From positions 1 through 36,501 of the forward strand of contig VFKA01000022.1 of NCBI GenBank assembly GCA_009885795.1: a DNA stretch of 36,501 nucleotides. Direction: 5' to 3'. This document shows, in pieces, positions 19,853 to 26,837 of the stretch (its first letter is position 1; each line of letters opens with the position of its first letter). The notes under the pieces were generated by a model. That model was given only the letters and a program-made list of their open reading frames with translations. It made no database searches and was not told the origin of the DNA. This DNA comes from Rhodospirillales bacterium (GTDB taxonomy: Bacteria; Pseudomonadota; Alphaproteobacteria; Dongiales; Dongiaceae). Position numbers and translations under genes: made by a program.

Positions 19853-20111
19853 GTTGATCGTAAACGATCTCACCCTGAAGGGCTTTTACCAGTCCGCTTT
19901 TTGGCTGACCTACCCCAGCCGCGCTCGTTAGAACGGGTTGCGAAGAAACCCCATTTTCGTCACCTCGCCCTTGGCGAGGTGGTGCCTCGGTTCGACCCGA
20001 AGCGGACACAAGGCACCTCGGCCATGGTGCCGCAACGCCGGGAAATTGCCCGCCACGGCCCTCACCCGAGGTCTTTCCGGTACGGATTCCAAATCCGACC
20101 GCCCATGGACC
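19853..20111. other. Long leader before the respiratory cluster, with a perfect hairpin at 19961-19981
   Basis: This is the gene-free part of the 385-base interval between the dehydrogenase remnant and the first cluster gene. CACCTCGCC (19961-19969) pairs perfectly with GGCGAGGTG (19973-19981) over a 3-base loop. No T-tract follows it, so it is not a convincing terminator. I see no coding potential with family resemblance here. The FNR-type box and promoter lie just downstream. Confidence 0.6.
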
Positions 20112-20125
20112 TTGATCTAGATCAA
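20112..20125. promoter_or_regulatory. FNR/FixK/DNR-type operator
   Basis: TTGATCTAGATCAA is a perfect match to the symmetric consensus TTGAT-N4-ATCAA bound by Crp/Fnr-family regulators of the FNR, FixK and DNR groups. Its centre at 20118.5 is 41.5 bases upstream of a start site predicted at 20160 from the CATTAT -10 element (20147-20152), exactly the class-II activator position. This predicts activation of the downstream cluster under low oxygen or by nitric oxide. Which regulator binds cannot be told from the site. Confidence 0.8.
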
Positions 20126-20160
20126 CGCTCGGACTCCCCCCGAGCGCATTATTTTTTCAG
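20126..20160 (+). promoter_or_regulatory. Predicted cluster promoter with spacer palindrome
   Basis: CATTAT at 20147-20152 is a plausible -10 box, and the -35 region is replaced by the activator site. Between them lies a perfect 7-bp inverted repeat, CGCTCGG (20126-20132) and CCGAGCG (20140-20146). A repressor bound there would block RNA polymerase. It could also be only a hairpin. Confidence 0.5.
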
Positions 20161-20183
20161 TAATGAGAACGGGGGAGGTTTCC

Positions 20184-20357
20184 GTGGCCGAACAGCCGAA
20201 AACGGATAGTCCGGCGGCGCCGCTTGAACGAATTCCTTTCATGCAGCGGGTTCTCGACAACCCATTCCTGCTGCTGTTCGCCGGCGTCGTGGTTCCGGCG
20301 GTCATCTATATCCTCTGGGGTGTGATGGAGATCTCCCAGATTCCCTTGGTGAAATAG
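20184..20357 (+). CDS. Small one-helix membrane peptide, possible subunit IIa of the heme-copper enzyme
   Basis: With GTG 20184 as start (GGGGAGG five bases upstream) the product has 57 residues. A soluble N-terminus (AEQPKTDSPAAPLERIPFM) precedes one transmembrane helix (PFLLLFAGVVVPAVIYILWGVM). An upstream ATG at 20163 would add seven residues but has no ribosome-binding site and lies almost at the predicted transcript start. It is the first gene of the cluster, eight bases before the CuA subunit gene. Thermus ba3 oxidase has a one-helix subunit IIa, so this may be the counterpart; that rests on size, topology and position only. Confidence 0.7.
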   Translation: MAEQPKTDSPAAPLERIPFMQRVLDNPFLLLFAGVVVPAVIYILWGVMEISQIPLVK

Positions 20358-20365
20358 GGGCCACG

Positions 20366-20920
20366 ATGGCAATTCATCCTCCGCAGTCTCGCGTCTGGTG
20401 GAAAGAGCCGATCGCCAAAGCCGAACTGGTCTGGATCGGCGTCGCCTTTCTCTGGGGCCTCATCATGTTCTTCATGATGATCTACTGGCACATCTACGGG
20501 CAGCAGAACCTGTCGACGCAAGTGGGCCGTATCGATCCCGCCGTCTTCGAACAACGCACCAACGACTTCGCCGAGAAATTCAAGGTCCGTGAAGAAGGCG
20601 ACACCGGTATTCCCGTGGTGAAGCCGCCGGCGGGCGGCGATGCCTATATGCTGGCTCGCACCTATGAATGGTGGCCGGTCCTCGAGCTGGAAAAGGGCAA
20701 GTCCTACAAGTTGCATATATCCTCTCTCGACCTGCAGCATGGATTTTCGCTGCAACCCATCAACATGAACATCCAGGTGCATCCGGGCCTCGAGCACGTC
20801 GTCACCATCACGCCGACCGAAGCTGGAATCTATGGCGTCGTCTGCAACGAATATTGCGGCCTCGGCCATCACGTGATGACCGGGCGCATTTACGTCGTCG
20901 ATTCCGGACAGGGGGGCTGA
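20366..20920 (+). CDS. Heme-copper enzyme subunit II, CuA domain (ba3/NorS-like)
   Basis: The 184-residue protein has a single N-terminal membrane helix (LVWIGVAFLWGLIMFFMMIYW) and a periplasmic cupredoxin domain. The full CuA ligand set is present: His125, Cys160, Glu162 (carbonyl ligand), Cys164, His168 and Met171 in CNEYCGLGHHVM. One helix and short length fit B-family (ba3-type) subunit II rather than two-helix aa3 CoxB. It would accept electrons from a cytochrome c or cupredoxin and pass them to subunit I, whose gene starts one base after its stop. In sNOR clusters the equivalent gene is called norS; I leave the symbol blank. Confidence 0.9.
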   Translation: MAIHPPQSRVWWKEPIAKAELVWIGVAFLWGLIMFFMMIYWHIYGQQNLSTQVGRIDPAVFEQRTNDFAEKFKVREEGDTGIPVVKPPAGGDAYMLARTYEWWPVLELEKGKSYKLHISSLDLQHGFSLQPINMNIQVHPGLEHVVTITPTEAGIYGVVCNEYCGLGHHVMTGRIYVVDSGQGG

Positions 20921-20921
20921 G

Positions 20922-22664
20922 ATGACCACGGCTGTTGCCGAAACCGGCATGATCGGAGCATTGGCCACGAAATTCCGCATCTGCCCGGCGACCGGCTTGA
21001 GAGTCGATCTTGCCGCCGAGCGCCTGATCAAGGCCAACGCGGTGGCCGCCGTCGTATTCCTGGCCATCGGAGGCGGATTTGGCCTGCTCGTCGCGCTGAC
21101 CCGCTGGCCCGCCGTCCATCTCCTGTCGTCGGACCTGTTCTACCTCGCGCTGACGGCACATGGCCTCGACGTGCTTCTGATGTGGATCATTTTTTTCGAA
21201 ATGGCGGTGCTGTACTTCGCTTCCGCCGTCATCCTCAGCAGCCGCATCGCGGCGCCCCGATGGGGATGGGTCGGTTTCGTCCTGATGATCGTGGGCGCGC
21301 TGATGACCAATGTCGCGGTGCTGCAGGGCGACTCGAGCGTGATGTTCACGTCCTACGTGCCGATGCAGGCGCGACCGCATTTTTATCTCGGACTGATCCT
21401 TTTCGCGGTGGGCGCGCTCATCGGCTGCTTCATCTTTCTCGGCACGCTGGTGATCGCCAAGGAAGAGAAGACCTATGAGGGGTCGATCCCTCTCGTCACC
21501 TTCGGCGCGTTGACCGCTTGCATCATCGCGGTCTTCACCATTGCCTCGGGAGCCATCATCCTGATCCCGACGTTCCTCTGGTCGGTCGGCTATATCGGTC
21601 ACATCGACTCGTTGATGTACAAGTTGGTGTGGTGGGCCATGGGCCACTCTTCGCAACAGATCAACGTCTCGGCCCATGTGGCGATCTGGTATCTGATCGC
21701 GGCGGTAACCGTCGGCGCCAAGCCGCTTTCCGAGAAAGTCAGCCGCACCGCCTTCCTGCTCTACATCCTCTTCCTGCAGCTCGCGGCGGCGCATCATATG
21801 CTTGTCGAACCGGGTCTCAGCTCGGAGTGGAAGATCGTGAATACGTCCTATATGATGTATCTTGCGGTATTGGGCAGCATGATCCACGGCATGACCGTGC
21901 CGGGATCGATCGAGGCGGCGCAGCGCAAGAGCGGCTTCACCCGCGGCGTGTTCGAATGGCTGCGCAAGGCGCCGTGGGGAAATCCGGCCTTCGCCGGCAT
22001 GTTCCTATCGCTGGTGATGTTCGGATTCCTTGGCGGTATTTCGGGCGTCGTGTTGGGCACGGAACAGCTCAACATCATGATGCACAACACGCTCTATGTG
22101 CCGGGGCATTTCCACGCCACGGTGGTCGCGGGAACGACGCTCGCCTTCATGGCGGTCACTTATCTCGTCGTGCCGCTCATCTTCCAACGAGAAATCGTCT
22201 GGCCGAAACTGGCGAAGATCCAGCCCTATCTCTTTGGCATCGGAGCCTCCGGTATCTCGCTTTTCATGATGGGTGCCGGCACCCTCGGGGTGGCGCGGCG
22301 GCATTGGGACATCACATTTCCAGCCTTGGACGTGACGCTTCCCTACGGCTACTCGCCCGCGGCGTCCTTGATGATGGGCTTGAACGGCCTGTCGGCCATT
22401 CTCGCGGCAACGGGCGGCGTACTCTACGTTGCCATCGTCGTGGCCAGCATCCTGTTCGGCAAGAAGGTCGATGCCAGCAACGCCGTGGCCGCGCTTGGCC
22501 CGATGCCGAAGAAGGTCGTGCACGACGCGGTGGCCAAGTACGGCGATGCGGGTACCTGGCACCTTCCCGGCACTTATGTTCTGGTCGGCCTCTTCTTCAC
22601 GACCTTCATTCTCTACTACTTCGTGAACTGGAAATATCTGTCCGAACTCTGGCCGATGCAGTGA
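20922..22664 (+). CDS. Heme-copper oxidoreductase subunit I, B-family, lacking the active-site Tyr (putative NO reductase, NorY-like)
   Basis: The 580-residue integral membrane protein has about 13 hydrophobic segments. It aligns well with Thermus ba3 subunit I across HHMLVEPG, WLRKAPWGNPAF and HNTLYVPGHFH. Ligands: His80 and His398 for the low-spin heme, His396 for the high-spin heme, and His242, His291 and His292 for CuB. Oxygen-reducing B-family enzymes have GHPxVY, with Tyr four residues after the first CuB His and covalently linked to it. Here the motif is GHSSQQ, so Gln246 stands there. Loss of this Tyr is a feature of NO-reducing branches of the superfamily. NO reductase is therefore my preferred call, an atypical oxidase the alternative. 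GGGGGG precedes the ATG. Confidence 0.85.
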   Translation: MTTAVAETGMIGALATKFRICPATGLRVDLAAERLIKANAVAAVVFLAIGGGFGLLVALTRWPAVHLLSSDLFYLALTAHGLDVLLMWIIFFEMAVLYFASAVILSSRIAAPRWGWVGFVLMIVGALMTNVAVLQGDSSVMFTSYVPMQARPHFYLGLILFAVGALIGCFIFLGTLVIAKEEKTYEGSIPLVTFGALTACIIAVFTIASGAIILIPTFLWSVGYIGHIDSLMYKLVWWAMGHSSQQINVSAHVAIWYLIAAVTVGAKPLSEKVSRTAFLLYILFLQLAAAHHMLVEPGLSSEWKIVNTSYMMYLAVLGSMIHGMTVPGSIEAAQRKSGFTRGVFEWLRKAPWGNPAFAGMFLSLVMFGFLGGISGVVLGTEQLNIMMHNTLYVPGHFHATVVAGTTLAFMAVTYLVVPLIFQREIVWPKLAKIQPYLFGIGASGISLFMMGAGTLGVARRHWDITFPALDVTLPYGYSPAASLMMGLNGLSAILAATGGVLYVAIVVASILFGKKVDASNAVAALGPMPKKVVHDAVAKYGDAGTWHLPGTYVLVGLFFTTFILYYFVNWKYLSELWPMQ

Positions 22665-22676
22665 GGCGTTGAGACG

Positions 22677-23561
22677 ATGGCCGCGGTCGCCACCGTTCCG
22701 TCGATCAAGGATGTGTTGTCGATCTTCAAGTTGAGGATCGGGGTCGCCATCATGATGAGCGCGCTCGGTGGCGTGGCGATTACGCCCGGCGTCATGCCCG
22801 ATCCTTGGCGGGTTACCATCCTCGCCTTCGCGGTGTTTCTTGCTTCCGCGAGCGCCGGCGCCTTCAACCAGTGGGCCGAGGCCGATCTCGACCGCCAAAT
22901 GAAGCGCACCGCCTCGCGGCCCTTCGCGTCGGGCCGCCTTCGGGCGGGTGGCCCATGGCTCACGGCAATCCTAGGGCTCCTGACAATCGCCGTTATCATG
23001 GCGGCATGGGCGGCCAATTGGTGGGCCGCTTTCCACACCTTCATGGGCGCTTTCGTCTACGGCATCGTCTACACCATGTGGCTGAAACGCCGCAGCTGGA
23101 CCAACATTATCGTCGGCGGGCTGGCCGGCAGCTTTGCCGTGCTGGCTGGCGCCGCCGCCGTTCATCCCGGCTGGCAGGCGGAACCGCTCATCCTCTCGCT
23201 CGTGCTGTTCCTTTGGACACCGCCGCATTTCTGGAGTTTGGCGATCGCCGCCCACGACGATTATGCCTCGGCCGGCGTTCCCATGTTGCCCGTGGTCTCC
23301 GGCGACGCACTGACCGCCAAGGTCATCCTGGCCCACACCCTGGCGCTTGCCGCCCTGTCGCTGCTGCCGGCCCTGTGGTCCATGGGCCCGATTTACCTAG
23401 CCGGCGCCGTGTCGGGCGGCGCGGTCTTCGTTTGGACCAGCATCAGGCTCGCGCTGGCGCCCTCGCGCAAGCGGGCGATCCGGAATTTCCTGGCCTCGCT
23501 CCTGCAACTCGTGCTGTTACTGTCGGGAATGGTCGCGGATCGTATCATCGGATCCTTCTGA
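22677..23561 (+). CDS. ctaB: Protoheme IX farnesyltransferase (heme O synthase)
   Basis: CtaB/CyoE attaches farnesyl to heme B to make heme O. The 294-residue product is a UbiA-family membrane prenyltransferase with about eight helices. The first Asp-rich motif is NQWAEADLDRQMKRTASRP (from residue 64, with Asp70 and Asp72). The second region has WTPPHFWSLAIAAHDDYASAGVPMLPV, typical of heme O synthases. Its place in the cluster suggests that subunit I carries heme O or A. No heme A synthase (CtaA) is encoded here. Its TGA overlaps the next ATG by one base. Confidence 0.93.
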   Translation: MAAVATVPSIKDVLSIFKLRIGVAIMMSALGGVAITPGVMPDPWRVTILAFAVFLASASAGAFNQWAEADLDRQMKRTASRPFASGRLRAGGPWLTAILGLLTIAVIMAAWAANWWAAFHTFMGAFVYGIVYTMWLKRRSWTNIIVGGLAGSFAVLAGAAAVHPGWQAEPLILSLVLFLWTPPHFWSLAIAAHDDYASAGVPMLPVVSGDALTAKVILAHTLALAALSLLPALWSMGPIYLAGAVSGGAVFVWTSIRLALAPSRKRAIRNFLASLLQLVLLLSGMVADRIIGSF

Positions 23562-24352
23562 TGTGGCGCCTCGTCATCGCGGTCGCCTGCCTCGCGATCG
23601 GGTTGTCATCCCTTGCCATGGCCGACGCGCGCACCGACGCGGCCTTGGCGGTCTCGCAAGGCGCCATCGGCACGAGCGTTCCCGATCTCGCATTCCGGGA
23701 TGCCGAGGGAAACAGGATCAACCTCGCCGATCTGCGTGGCAAGCCGCTGGTCATTACGTTGATCTATACGAGCTGTTCCGAATTGTGCCCCACGATCGTC
23801 GAAAGCCTCGCGGCCGGCGTCGAGACAGCCGAAGACATTCTTGGCGCCGGAAGTTTCAATGTTCTCACCATCGGCTTCGACATCCGCAACGACACGCCGG
23901 ATCGCATGCGCTCGTTCGCTCGCGCTCACAATGCCGGCGGCGACAACTGGTTCTTCGCCGGCTCCGACGAGGCAACCATGGAGCGTCTCGGCGCGGCGGT
24001 CGGTTTCAGCTTCTTTTCCTCCGCCGGCGGCTTCGACCACATGGCCCAGGTGACCGTCCTCGACAAAACCGGCACGATCTACCAGCAGGTCTACGGCAGC
24101 ACGTTCGCGCCCCCGGCTATTGTCGAGCCACTGAAGCAGTTGATCCTCGGCGGCGAGCGTTCGATTTTTTCTCTGGCCGGCCTCGGCGACCGGGTGAGGC
24201 TATTCTGCACGGCCTTCGATCCCAACACCGGCCGCTACTATTTCGACTACTCGCTGCTCGTGGCGATCTTCGTGGGCGCCGGTTGCCTTGTTGGCATACT
24301 CGTCTTCCTGATCCGCGAGACACGAAAATCGCTGCGAAGCAAAGGCGTCTGA
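23561..24352 (+). CDS. SCO1/SenC copper-delivery protein with extra C-terminal membrane anchor
   Basis: SCO proteins load copper into CuA. The 263-residue product has a signal or anchor sequence (residues 1-22), a thioredoxin-like domain with the copper/thiol motif Cys72-x3-Cys76 (SCSELCP) and the distal ligand His160 (GGFDHMAQV). Unusually, after RVRLFCTAFDPNTGRYYFDY there is a second membrane helix (about residues 231-251, LLVAIFVGAGCLVGILVFLI) and a basic end. It probably matures the CuA site of the adjacent subunit II. sNOR clusters of ammonia oxidisers also contain a senC gene, as I recall. Confidence 0.9.
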   Translation: MWRLVIAVACLAIGLSSLAMADARTDAALAVSQGAIGTSVPDLAFRDAEGNRINLADLRGKPLVITLIYTSCSELCPTIVESLAAGVETAEDILGAGSFNVLTIGFDIRNDTPDRMRSFARAHNAGGDNWFFAGSDEATMERLGAAVGFSFFSSAGGFDHMAQVTVLDKTGTIYQQVYGSTFAPPAIVEPLKQLILGGERSIFSLAGLGDRVRLFCTAFDPNTGRYYFDYSLLVAIFVGAGCLVGILVFLIRETRKSLRSKGV

Positions 24353-24356
24353 GCCC

Positions 24357-25934
24357 ATGGGCCTGCTGAAGCGGTCGCTTCGCGCCTGTTTCGACTCTGG
24401 CGAACGATTTCTCGCGCTGGCATTCCCGCCGGACTGGAATCCCTTGCTCAATCTCGGAGCACTCGGATTCTTCTTCTACTGGATCGTGACCGTCAGCGGC
24501 ATCTACGTATACATCTTCCTCGACACCGGCGTCACCCAGGCTTTCGCGTCGGTCGAATACATGACCGGCGAGCAATGGTACGCGGCGGGTCTCATGCGAA
24601 GCCTGCACCGCTATGCGTCCGACGGCCTTGTGGCGGTCATGCTGCTCCACATGCTGCGTGAATTCGCGCTCGACCGTTTTCGCGGCGTGCGCTGGTTCGG
24701 CTGGGCGACCGGCATCGCCGTGCTGTTGCTCGTCACCATCGCCGGAATCAGCGGTTACTGGCTGGTCTGGGACAGGCTCGCCCAATACGTGGCGATCGTC
24801 TCGACCGAATGGCTGGACCATCTTCCCTTTTTCGGACAGCCCATCGCGCGCAACTTCCTGTCGCCGGAGACGCTCGACAGCCGCTTTTTCACGCTGATGA
24901 TCTTCATGCACATCGCGGTTCCGTTGATCGCGCTCGTCGGCTTGTGGCTGCATCTGCAGCGCGTCACCAAGCCGCGGATCAATCCGCCGATGGGGCTGGC
25001 CGTTGGCGCCGGATTGTCGTTGCTCATGCTCTCGGCCGTGCATCCGGCCACGAGTCAGGGCGCGGCGAACCTCGCCCAGGTTCCAGGCAGCGTCGGCCTC
25101 GACTGGTTTTATCTTGGCGCCTATCCCCTGCTTGAAACGTTTTCCGGCGAGGTGACATGGAGCGCGGCCTTGGCGCTCCTCGTCATCATGGGGGCGATCC
25201 CCTGGCTTCCGCCCATGAAGCGGCAGAGGCCTGCCGCGGTCGATCTCGCCAATTGCAATGGTTGCGCCCGCTGCATGAACGACTGCCCCTACAGCGCCAT
25301 AACCATGCAAGCGCGAAGCGATGGCCGGCCCTTCGAGGGCGAAGCCGTCGTCGATCCCGATCTCTGTGTCGCGTGCGGAATCTGCGCGGGGTCCTGCCCG
25401 ACATCGACGCCGTTCCGCCGCCTATCCGACCTCGTACCCGGCATCGACCTTCCGGACCGCTCCATCGCCGCGATCCGCGCCGACGCGGATGCGGAGGGCG
25501 CCCGCATCGCCGGCCCGGCCCGCATCATGGTCTTCGGCTGCATCAACGCCGGCGTCGCGGCAGCCTGCCGCGCGGCCGATGTCGGAGTCGTTTCGCTCAA
25601 CTGTACCGGGCAATTGCCGCCGTCCTTCATCGACTATGTCATCAGCCGCAAGTTGGCCGATGGCGTGCTCATCGCGGGTTGCAGAGAGAACGGCTGCCAT
25701 AACAGGTTTGGCGCCAGATGGACCGCGGACCGGCTGGCGGGCGAGCGCGATCCATACCTCAGGGCCCGTGTGCCGCGCGCGAGGGTCGTCACCTTGTGGG
25801 CCGGCAGGCTGGGCGGCGCCGGCTTGCGTCGCGAGATCGCCGCGCTGGCAACGCGCCTGGCGTTGCTTGGGCCCTTCAAACCGAAGTCGCCTTTCGGCCG
25901 CGCCGTGGCGCAAGGAGAGAGGGCCGATGCCTAG
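24357..25934 (+). CDS. Cytochrome b / 2x[4Fe-4S] ferredoxin / MvhD-like fusion protein
   Basis: This 525-residue fusion has three parts. Residues 1-285 resemble cytochrome b/b6, with paired heme ligands His84/His98 and His185/His199 and about five or six helices. Residues 296-350 are a bacterial two-cluster ferredoxin (CNGCARCMNDCP, Cys300-303-306-310; CVACGICAGSCP, Cys337-340-343-347). Residues 388-455 resemble the delta subunit of methyl-viologen-reducing hydrogenase (MvhD), with cysteines 395, 416, 442 and 447 suited to a [2Fe-2S] cluster. It probably moves electrons between the quinone pool and a soluble donor or the neighbouring enzyme; direction and partner are unknown. It starts four bases after the SCO gene. 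Confidence 0.88.
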   Translation: MGLLKRSLRACFDSGERFLALAFPPDWNPLLNLGALGFFFYWIVTVSGIYVYIFLDTGVTQAFASVEYMTGEQWYAAGLMRSLHRYASDGLVAVMLLHMLREFALDRFRGVRWFGWATGIAVLLLVTIAGISGYWLVWDRLAQYVAIVSTEWLDHLPFFGQPIARNFLSPETLDSRFFTLMIFMHIAVPLIALVGLWLHLQRVTKPRINPPMGLAVGAGLSLLMLSAVHPATSQGAANLAQVPGSVGLDWFYLGAYPLLETFSGEVTWSAALALLVIMGAIPWLPPMKRQRPAAVDLANCNGCARCMNDCPYSAITMQARSDGRPFEGEAVVDPDLCVACGICAGSCPTSTPFRRLSDLVPGIDLPDRSIAAIRADADAEGARIAGPARIMVFGCINAGVAAACRAADVGVVSLNCTGQLPPSFIDYVISRKLADGVLIAGCRENGCHNRFGARWTADRLAGERDPYLRARVPRARVVTLWAGRLGGAGLRREIAALATRLALLGPFKPKSPFGRAVAQGERADA

Positions 25935-26430
25935 CGTCGCGAGATATGCCGGGCAGATCCTGTTCCATGCCGGGTTTGCCGCCGCTATCGGAACCTTCGC
26001 ATCCTGGCCCATGTACAACCGGATGCCGGAGGGCTCGGCGCAAATCAAGCTTTCCTTCAACCACGGCGGTAGGCGCGTGGAGGATTGCCGCAGGCTCACG
26101 GCGGAGGAACTCTCGAAGCTGCCGAGCAACCAGCGGCGGCCCATCGACTGTTCGCGCGAACGCCTGCCGGTCACCATCCAGCTCTTGATCGACGGAGCGC
26201 CGATCTACGAAGCGGTGCTGAAACCCGGCGGCATTGCCGGCGACGGACAGGCGCGGGCCTATGAGAAATTCATCGTCCCCGCGGGAACGCATCTGATCGA
26301 AGCGCGGCTGCGCGACAGCAAGCGGAGCGAGGGATTCGATTATCGGAGCAGATTCGAGGCGGCGTTGGCGCCAGGGCAGAATCTCGCCATCGACTTCAAG
26401 GCCGAACAAGGCGGCTTCCTCTTCAGGTAG
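25927..26430 (+). CDS. Unknown membrane-anchored periplasmic protein
   Basis: I do not recognise this 167-residue product. It has one N-terminal hydrophobic segment (about residues 9-28, GQILFHAGFAAAIGTFASWP), then a soluble beta-rich part with two cysteines (Cys54, Cys75) and sequences such as PVTIQLLIDGAPIYEAVLKP and VPAGTHLIEARLRDS. These read like an immunoglobulin-like or carboxypeptidase-regulatory-like fold, on appearance only. The start overlaps the end of the cytochrome b fusion gene by eight bases, so it is translationally coupled and belongs to the cluster. It may be an accessory or assembly factor. Confidence 0.75.
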   Translation: MPSVARYAGQILFHAGFAAAIGTFASWPMYNRMPEGSAQIKLSFNHGGRRVEDCRRLTAEELSKLPSNQRRPIDCSRERLPVTIQLLIDGAPIYEAVLKPGGIAGDGQARAYEKFIVPAGTHLIEARLRDSKRSEGFDYRSRFEAALAPGQNLAIDFKAEQGGFLFR

Positions 26431-26438
26431 CGAATCGC

Positions 26439-26837
26439 ATGACCCTCATCGAATGGCGCAAGGAATTCGAAACCGGCATTCCCGGCGTCGATCACGAACA
26501 CCGGGAACTCGTCGATGTCATCAACCGTCTGCACGGGCATATGGCGGGCGGGGTGGATCGGACCCGCGTCACCGAGTTCCTCGGCGAGGTCTTCGCCCGG
26601 ATCGCCGCTCATTTCGCGCTCGAGGAATCCATCATGCGCAAGCACGCCTACGACGAATACGAAGCCCACAAGACCGAACATGAACAACTGCTTGACGAGA
26701 TCCGGGACATCATGGACGCGCAACAGGGTCTTCCGCCGCCGGACTATGGAGACAGCCTGTCATCCGCGGTGCGGGACTGGTTCGTGAACCACTTCAAATC
26801 GAAGGACGCCCGGCTGCACAAGAAACTGGGCGTGTGA
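26439..26837 (+). CDS. Bacteriohemerythrin
   Basis: This 132-residue four-helix protein has the complete di-iron ligand set: His21 (DHEHREL), His58 and Glu62 (HFALEES), His77 and His81 (HKTEHEQ), His118 and Asp123 (HFKSKD). Hemerythrins bind O2 reversibly and some bind or turn over NO. It is the last gene of the FNR-box cluster, eight bases after the unknown gene, so it probably supplies, buffers or senses O2 or NO for the enzyme. The length is that of single-domain bacterial forms. Confidence 0.93.
   Translation: MTLIEWRKEFETGIPGVDHEHRELVDVINRLHGHMAGGVDRTRVTEFLGEVFARIAAHFALEESIMRKHAYDEYEAHKTEHEQLLDEIRDIMDAQQGLPPPDYGDSLSSAVRDWFVNHFKSKDARLHKKLGV

Follow-up and report, generated by a model that had tools for sequence, protein, structure and literature searches.

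The window analysed here, a 36,501-nt stretch of DNA, carries a palindromic FNR-type box followed by a candidate promoter region and a run of respiratory genes. The features of this locus are as follows.

20112..20125, strand not given: FNR-type box TTGATCTAGATCAA, a perfect 14-bp palindrome centred at 20118.5; predicted class-II activator site
20126..20146, plus strand: inverted repeat CGCTCGG-ACTCCCC-CCGAGCG, then CATTATTTTTT; terminator-like, between the box and the -10 region, not conserved
20147..20153, plus strand: -10 region, CATTAT (20147-20152) or ATTATT (20148-20153), the latter at the modal -10 offset in 53 promoters
20160, plus strand: predicted transcription start, good to about 2 bases, placed by the spacing of the box and the -10 region
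20171..20178, plus strand: ribosome-binding site GGGGGAGG, read from the sequence
20184..20357, plus strand: 57-aa one-helix protein with a GTG start and without a Pfam or NCBIfam match; in 80/80 related loci (best 80 of 554)
20366..20920, plus strand: eNOR subunit II, a cupredoxin, with the CuA motif CNEYCGLGHHVM
20922..22664, plus strand: eNOR subunit I, haem-copper, with GHSSQQINV
22677..23561, plus strand: heme o synthase CyoE/CtaB; in 68/80 related loci (best 80 of 554)
23561..24352, plus strand: Sco-like copper chaperone, 263 aa, with a TSCSELCP motif read by eye
24357..25934, plus strand: cytochrome b / 2x[4Fe-4S] ferredoxin / FlpD(MvhD) fusion; in 76/80 related loci (best 80 of 554)
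25927..26430, plus strand: 167-aa protein of unknown family
26439..26837, plus strand: bacteriohemerythrin; in 70/80 related loci (best 80 of 554)

The operon encodes a predicted eNOR-type nitric oxide reductase

In subunit I, the GHSSQQINV motif places a Gln four residues past a ligand His, at the position of the cross-linked Tyr of the oxidases, and this H242-xxx-Q246 arrangement was invariant in 5 aligned homologues. A conserved Gln at the Tyr position is a criterion for recognising eNOR, whose genes frequently carry the annotation cytochrome c oxidase (PMC8756737). The enzyme, known here from sequence, is like eNOR (PMC8756737) both in this residue and in having a cupredoxin subunit II with a CuA motif (20366-20920) immediately upstream of subunit I; we found no features that set it apart from the described eNOR. 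Judged by sequence, the remaining haem-copper genes of the genome encode oxidases. Two of these have HPEVY, one being split over contigs, and the third is a cbb3 oxidase, split as well. No other NOR-type haem-copper enzyme was found in the genome, where eNOR stands beside NirK and NarG. A search for NirS gave no match in the genome, and the control genomes barely matched either; the NosZ search matched in no control genome and carries no weight for an absence of NosZ.

Three points together support the view that the operon encodes a nitric oxide reductase of the little-studied eNOR type, the activity being predicted: the active-site Gln, the failure to find a second NOR-type haem-copper enzyme, and the co-occurrence of NirK and NarG in the genome. 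The first-pass annotation had read the respiratory cluster as an NO reductase, and both the residues and the genome context agree with this for the eNOR type. It had also taken the upstream box as support for that reading, an argument that fails: this genome's ccoN (cbb3 oxidase) cluster carries the same kind of box, so that the box alone cannot favour an NO reductase over an oxidase. As for the accessory genes, the 57-aa protein is a probable, as yet unnamed, small eNOR subunit, and the cytochrome b/ferredoxin/FlpD fusion is a possible electron-transfer partner.

A perfect FNR-type box lies at a class-II distance from the -10 region

With 0 mismatches, TTGATCTAGATCAA is the sole perfect match to TTGATNNNNATCAA in the window; with up to one mismatch allowed there were 3, where shuffles averaged 0.48. 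The site had been described as a perfect 14-base match. The pattern in fact specifies ten bases, not fourteen, but the N4 is CTAG, which completes a perfect palindrome over the whole 14-mer, and the site has the TTGATnnnnATCAA box of an FNR-type class-II promoter. Across the 3.46-Mb genome (99.89% complete), there were 7 perfect TTGATN4ATCAA sites versus 0 for the reversed control pattern; an independent-base estimate at the window's GC content of 0.65 gives about 0.3 expected sites per 3.46 Mb and about 0.003 per 36.5 kb. The relaxed pattern TTGAYnnnnRTCAA occurred at 12 genome sites versus 3 for its control. A separate inverted repeat, CGGATTCCAAATCCG, lies at 20085-20099, immediately upstream of the box.

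We then compared the position of the -10 region with that in 53 box-aligned promoters (window included). The counts of TAnnnT peaked at +36 (13/53), measured from the first base of the box and equal to 29.5 from its centre; 7 more lay at +37, and the other offsets had 0-3, most of them 0-2. The best -10 hexamer of the window stands at +35 (CATTAT) or, one base away and at the modal offset, at +36 (ATTATT), giving a distance of 28.5-29.5 from the box centre where the mode is 29.5. Counting 41.5 downstream from the box centre at 20118.5 predicts the start at 20160. The class-II geometry, with a centre near -41.5, a -10 region about 29.5 from the centre and a dispensable -35 element, holds and is kept in relatives, with the start as a predicted one. 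The class-II spacing of the first-pass annotation thus stands, whereas its "exact" 41.5 holds within a margin of about 1-2 bases, with the hexamer at +35 or +36 and the peak at +36. The -10 region is weak (4/6 matches to TATAAT), and a sigma-70 scan found no full promoter here; a missing -35 element is expected at class-II sites. The Bradyrhizobium nosR promoter, where the mapped FixK2-dependent start lies 40.5 bp from the box centre, provides a precedent (PMC5582078).

The box is conserved in front of eNOR clusters

For comparison across loci we assembled 86 subunit I homologues, comprising the best 80 of 554 loci, 5 from class relatives and the window, and scanned the region 650-1000 bases before subunit I. 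TTGA-N6-TCAA was present in 53/86 of these phylogenetically non-independent eNOR clusters, at about 0.8-0.9 kb before subunit I; a one-mismatch box was present in 13 more, and in 20/86 no box within one mismatch was found in that region. In the same scan, motifs with permuted letters gave 0-3 matches and other spacers 0-1. The loci analysed span Hyphomicrobiales, Geminicoccaceae, Rhodospirillales and several Gammaproteobacteria. We found no description of FNR-type box conservation before eNOR in the open-access literature searched: the promoter type is well known, but this conserved placement seems not to have been described.

The eNOR box of L044 and L046 is TTAACCGAAGTCAA, and the Crp/Fnr regulators near eNOR in these two loci, as in L067 and L089, have TLHTVSR, not E-x-x-SR, hinting that regulator and site may have changed together in L044 and L046. 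An eNOR subunit I of the window's kind was absent from the 16 other genomes of the same family (G001-G016), and a 91%-identical copy was present in an Aestuariivirga MAG (L032); transfer or loss is a possible explanation.

A terminator-like hairpin occupies the promoter spacer

A GC-rich hairpin with a perfect 7-bp stem, together with its T run, spans 20126-20157. The hairpin plus CATTATTTTTT scores as an intrinsic terminator (6 of the 7 stem pairs are G-C), and such a stem was reached in 0.2% of base shuffles of the spacer. Accordingly, 20112-20160 might be taken as the terminator of the upstream gene (hairpin 20126-20146 and T run), the box being incidental. That gene, however, ends some 330 bases earlier, with two further terminator-like sites closer to it. 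Moreover, the box keeps its place across eNOR loci and the hairpin does not, a spacer stem of at least 6 being found in 2/53 promoters (the window and L048). We consider it very unlikely that the region is simply a terminator. A conserved attenuator was rejected as well, the hairpin being without conservation. With a start near 20160, the hairpin would lie outside the operon's own transcript and could only stop read-through from upstream, which it could do alongside the promoter's role.

Further boxes outline a predicted low-oxygen regulon

The other perfect sites were examined for their likely targets. Four of them lie about 57-72 bases before start codons, two of these belonging to genes for a NarK-family transporter and a universal stress protein, the others to a host-attachment-like gene and a small gene of unknown kind; one further site is intergenic with no clear target, and 1/7 falls inside galU, probably by chance. 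narG is the next gene downstream of narK on the same strand, and the narK operon continues into it. Relaxing the pattern brings in nirK (TTGATCTAGGTCAA) and DUF2189-ccoN (TTGACTTAGATCAA), along with an HPF-like gene and another universal stress protein. Target gene names given without a family search were judged by eye from the sequences. The nirK box lies 78 bases before the ATG; NirK itself (L112:685-2424) has 579 aa with, by eye, N-terminal cytochrome c-like and cupredoxin domains. A scan for boxes near denitrification genes, proposed in the first-pass annotation, thus found them before narK-narG and nirK, and the targets as a whole have the make-up of a low-oxygen FNR/FixK regulon as predicted from sequence. 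That the palindrome in the window arose by chance and has no function is extremely unlikely: although the one perfect site of seven inside galU may be such a case, the window's site has a position kept in 53 of the 86 eNOR clusters and belongs to this regulon context.

The single recognisable Crp/Fnr regulator is of the FNR type

In the 99.89%-complete genome, one protein (L001:1480-2223, minus strand, 247 aa) lay above the Crp/Fnr HTH family cut-off. Among solved structures it is closest to FNR proteins (3.4e-35), and of the NCBIfam models FnrL fits it best, at 161.9 bits; since this is below the 300-bit equivalog cut-off for membership, the name FnrL is provisional. The N-terminus contains C20, C23 and C31 (C-x2-C-x7-C) and a later Cys aligns to that of FNR, so the protein has both the N-terminal Cys cluster and the central Cys for a [4Fe-4S] cluster. 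Its recognition helix, E-T-V-S-R, aligned to the E-T-I-S-R of FNR. By these features the regulator is FnrL/FNR-like, with four cluster-type cysteines, and the genome encodes an FNR-family protein. The first-pass annotation had proposed a search for FNR, FixK or DNR homologues and would have given up its reading had no Crp/Fnr regulator been present; one of FNR type was found.

No DNR- or NnrR-type regulator was found in the genome by the Crp/Fnr HTH search. As a positive control, the identical search gave several strong Crp/Fnr matches in each of six relatives, so it would probably have detected DNR- or NnrR-like proteins here. Other proteins with a cNMP-binding domain were ruled out as readers of the box, having no Crp-type HTH over the cut-off. 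These results bear on whether the box might instead be used by an NO-sensing activator of the DNR/NNR or NnrR type, with the operon induced by NO. DNR recognises a motif like TTGATnnnnATCAA (PMC1274295), and Bradyrhizobium NnrR targets include FixK2-like boxes. In addition, cysteine-free Crp/Fnr genes with PESLSR helices occur within about 5 kb of several related eNOR loci, the close relatives L032 and L054 among them. However, the predicted alphaproteobacterial NnrR sites, TTGcgnnnncgCAA, are unlike TTGATCTAGATCAA, and the sole Crp/Fnr HTH over the cut-off is of the FNR type where the six relatives yield several. NO-sensing control is therefore unlikely in this organism; the DNR-like genes near eNOR in relatives suggest that it may hold elsewhere in the family. 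The earlier prediction of a "microoxic or NO-induced" cluster is accordingly supported in its microoxic part, as a member of an FNR regulon, and not in NO-specific induction, for which no DNR or NnrR was found.

Discussion

We conclude that 20112-20160 is very probably a class-II promoter that depends on FNR and turns on the eNOR operon as oxygen falls. Activation at low oxygen by the FnrL-like protein is a well supported prediction; the box, its conserved place, the spacing to the -10 region and the single FNR-type regulator were established by sequence and comparison. At low oxygen, the FnrL-like protein would retain its [4Fe-4S] cluster and dimerise. The dimer would bind TTGATCTAGATCAA, whose centre lies about 41.5 bp ahead of the start, in place of a -35 element, and by contacting RNA polymerase would recruit it to the weak CATTAT/ATTATT. 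The transcript would start near 20160, with translation from the GTG at 20184 yielding first the small subunit, then subunits II and I, followed by the products of the genes for assembly and electron transfer. This regulator would probably also activate narK-narG, nirK and the cbb3 oxidase alongside eNOR, and we propose that, through joint activation, the NO made by NirK would be consumed by eNOR. The primary signal in this organism would be oxygen, not NO. FNR-type proteins can be damaged by NO, so NO may modulate the response.

The promoter shares TTGA-N6-TCAA, the distance to the -10 region and a target set of cbb3 and denitrification genes with the FNR/FixK/FnrL class-II promoters, such as those of Bradyrhizobium nosR and ccoN/fixN (PMC5582078, PMC6710368). 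It differs from them in its target, an eNOR operon, in the FNR-type protein being the only recognisable Crp/Fnr regulator, and in the spacer hairpin. The DNR/NNR regulons of denitrifiers (PMC1274295) have a similar box, and both count NO reductase and nitrite reductase among their targets, which here are predicted ones; unlike in those regulons, no DNR/NnrR-type protein was found here and the regulator has [4Fe-4S]-type cysteines.

A broader reading, which we hold to be about equally likely to be right or wrong, is that eNOR operons of Alpha- and Gammaproteobacteria have an ancestral FNR/DNR-type class-II promoter. In this organism the NO-sensing paralogues would be gone and one FNR-type protein would drive narK-narG, nirK, cbb3 and eNOR, leaving the nitrate-to-N2O chain set by oxygen alone. 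The conserved FNR/DNR-type promoter is independent evidence, from two proteobacterial classes, for eNOR in low-oxygen or nitrogen-oxide respiration, and it marks a point at which the control of an N2O-producing enzyme can be tested directly. With its single regulator, the genome would reveal whether a chain of denitrification steps can operate when oxygen is sensed but NO is not.
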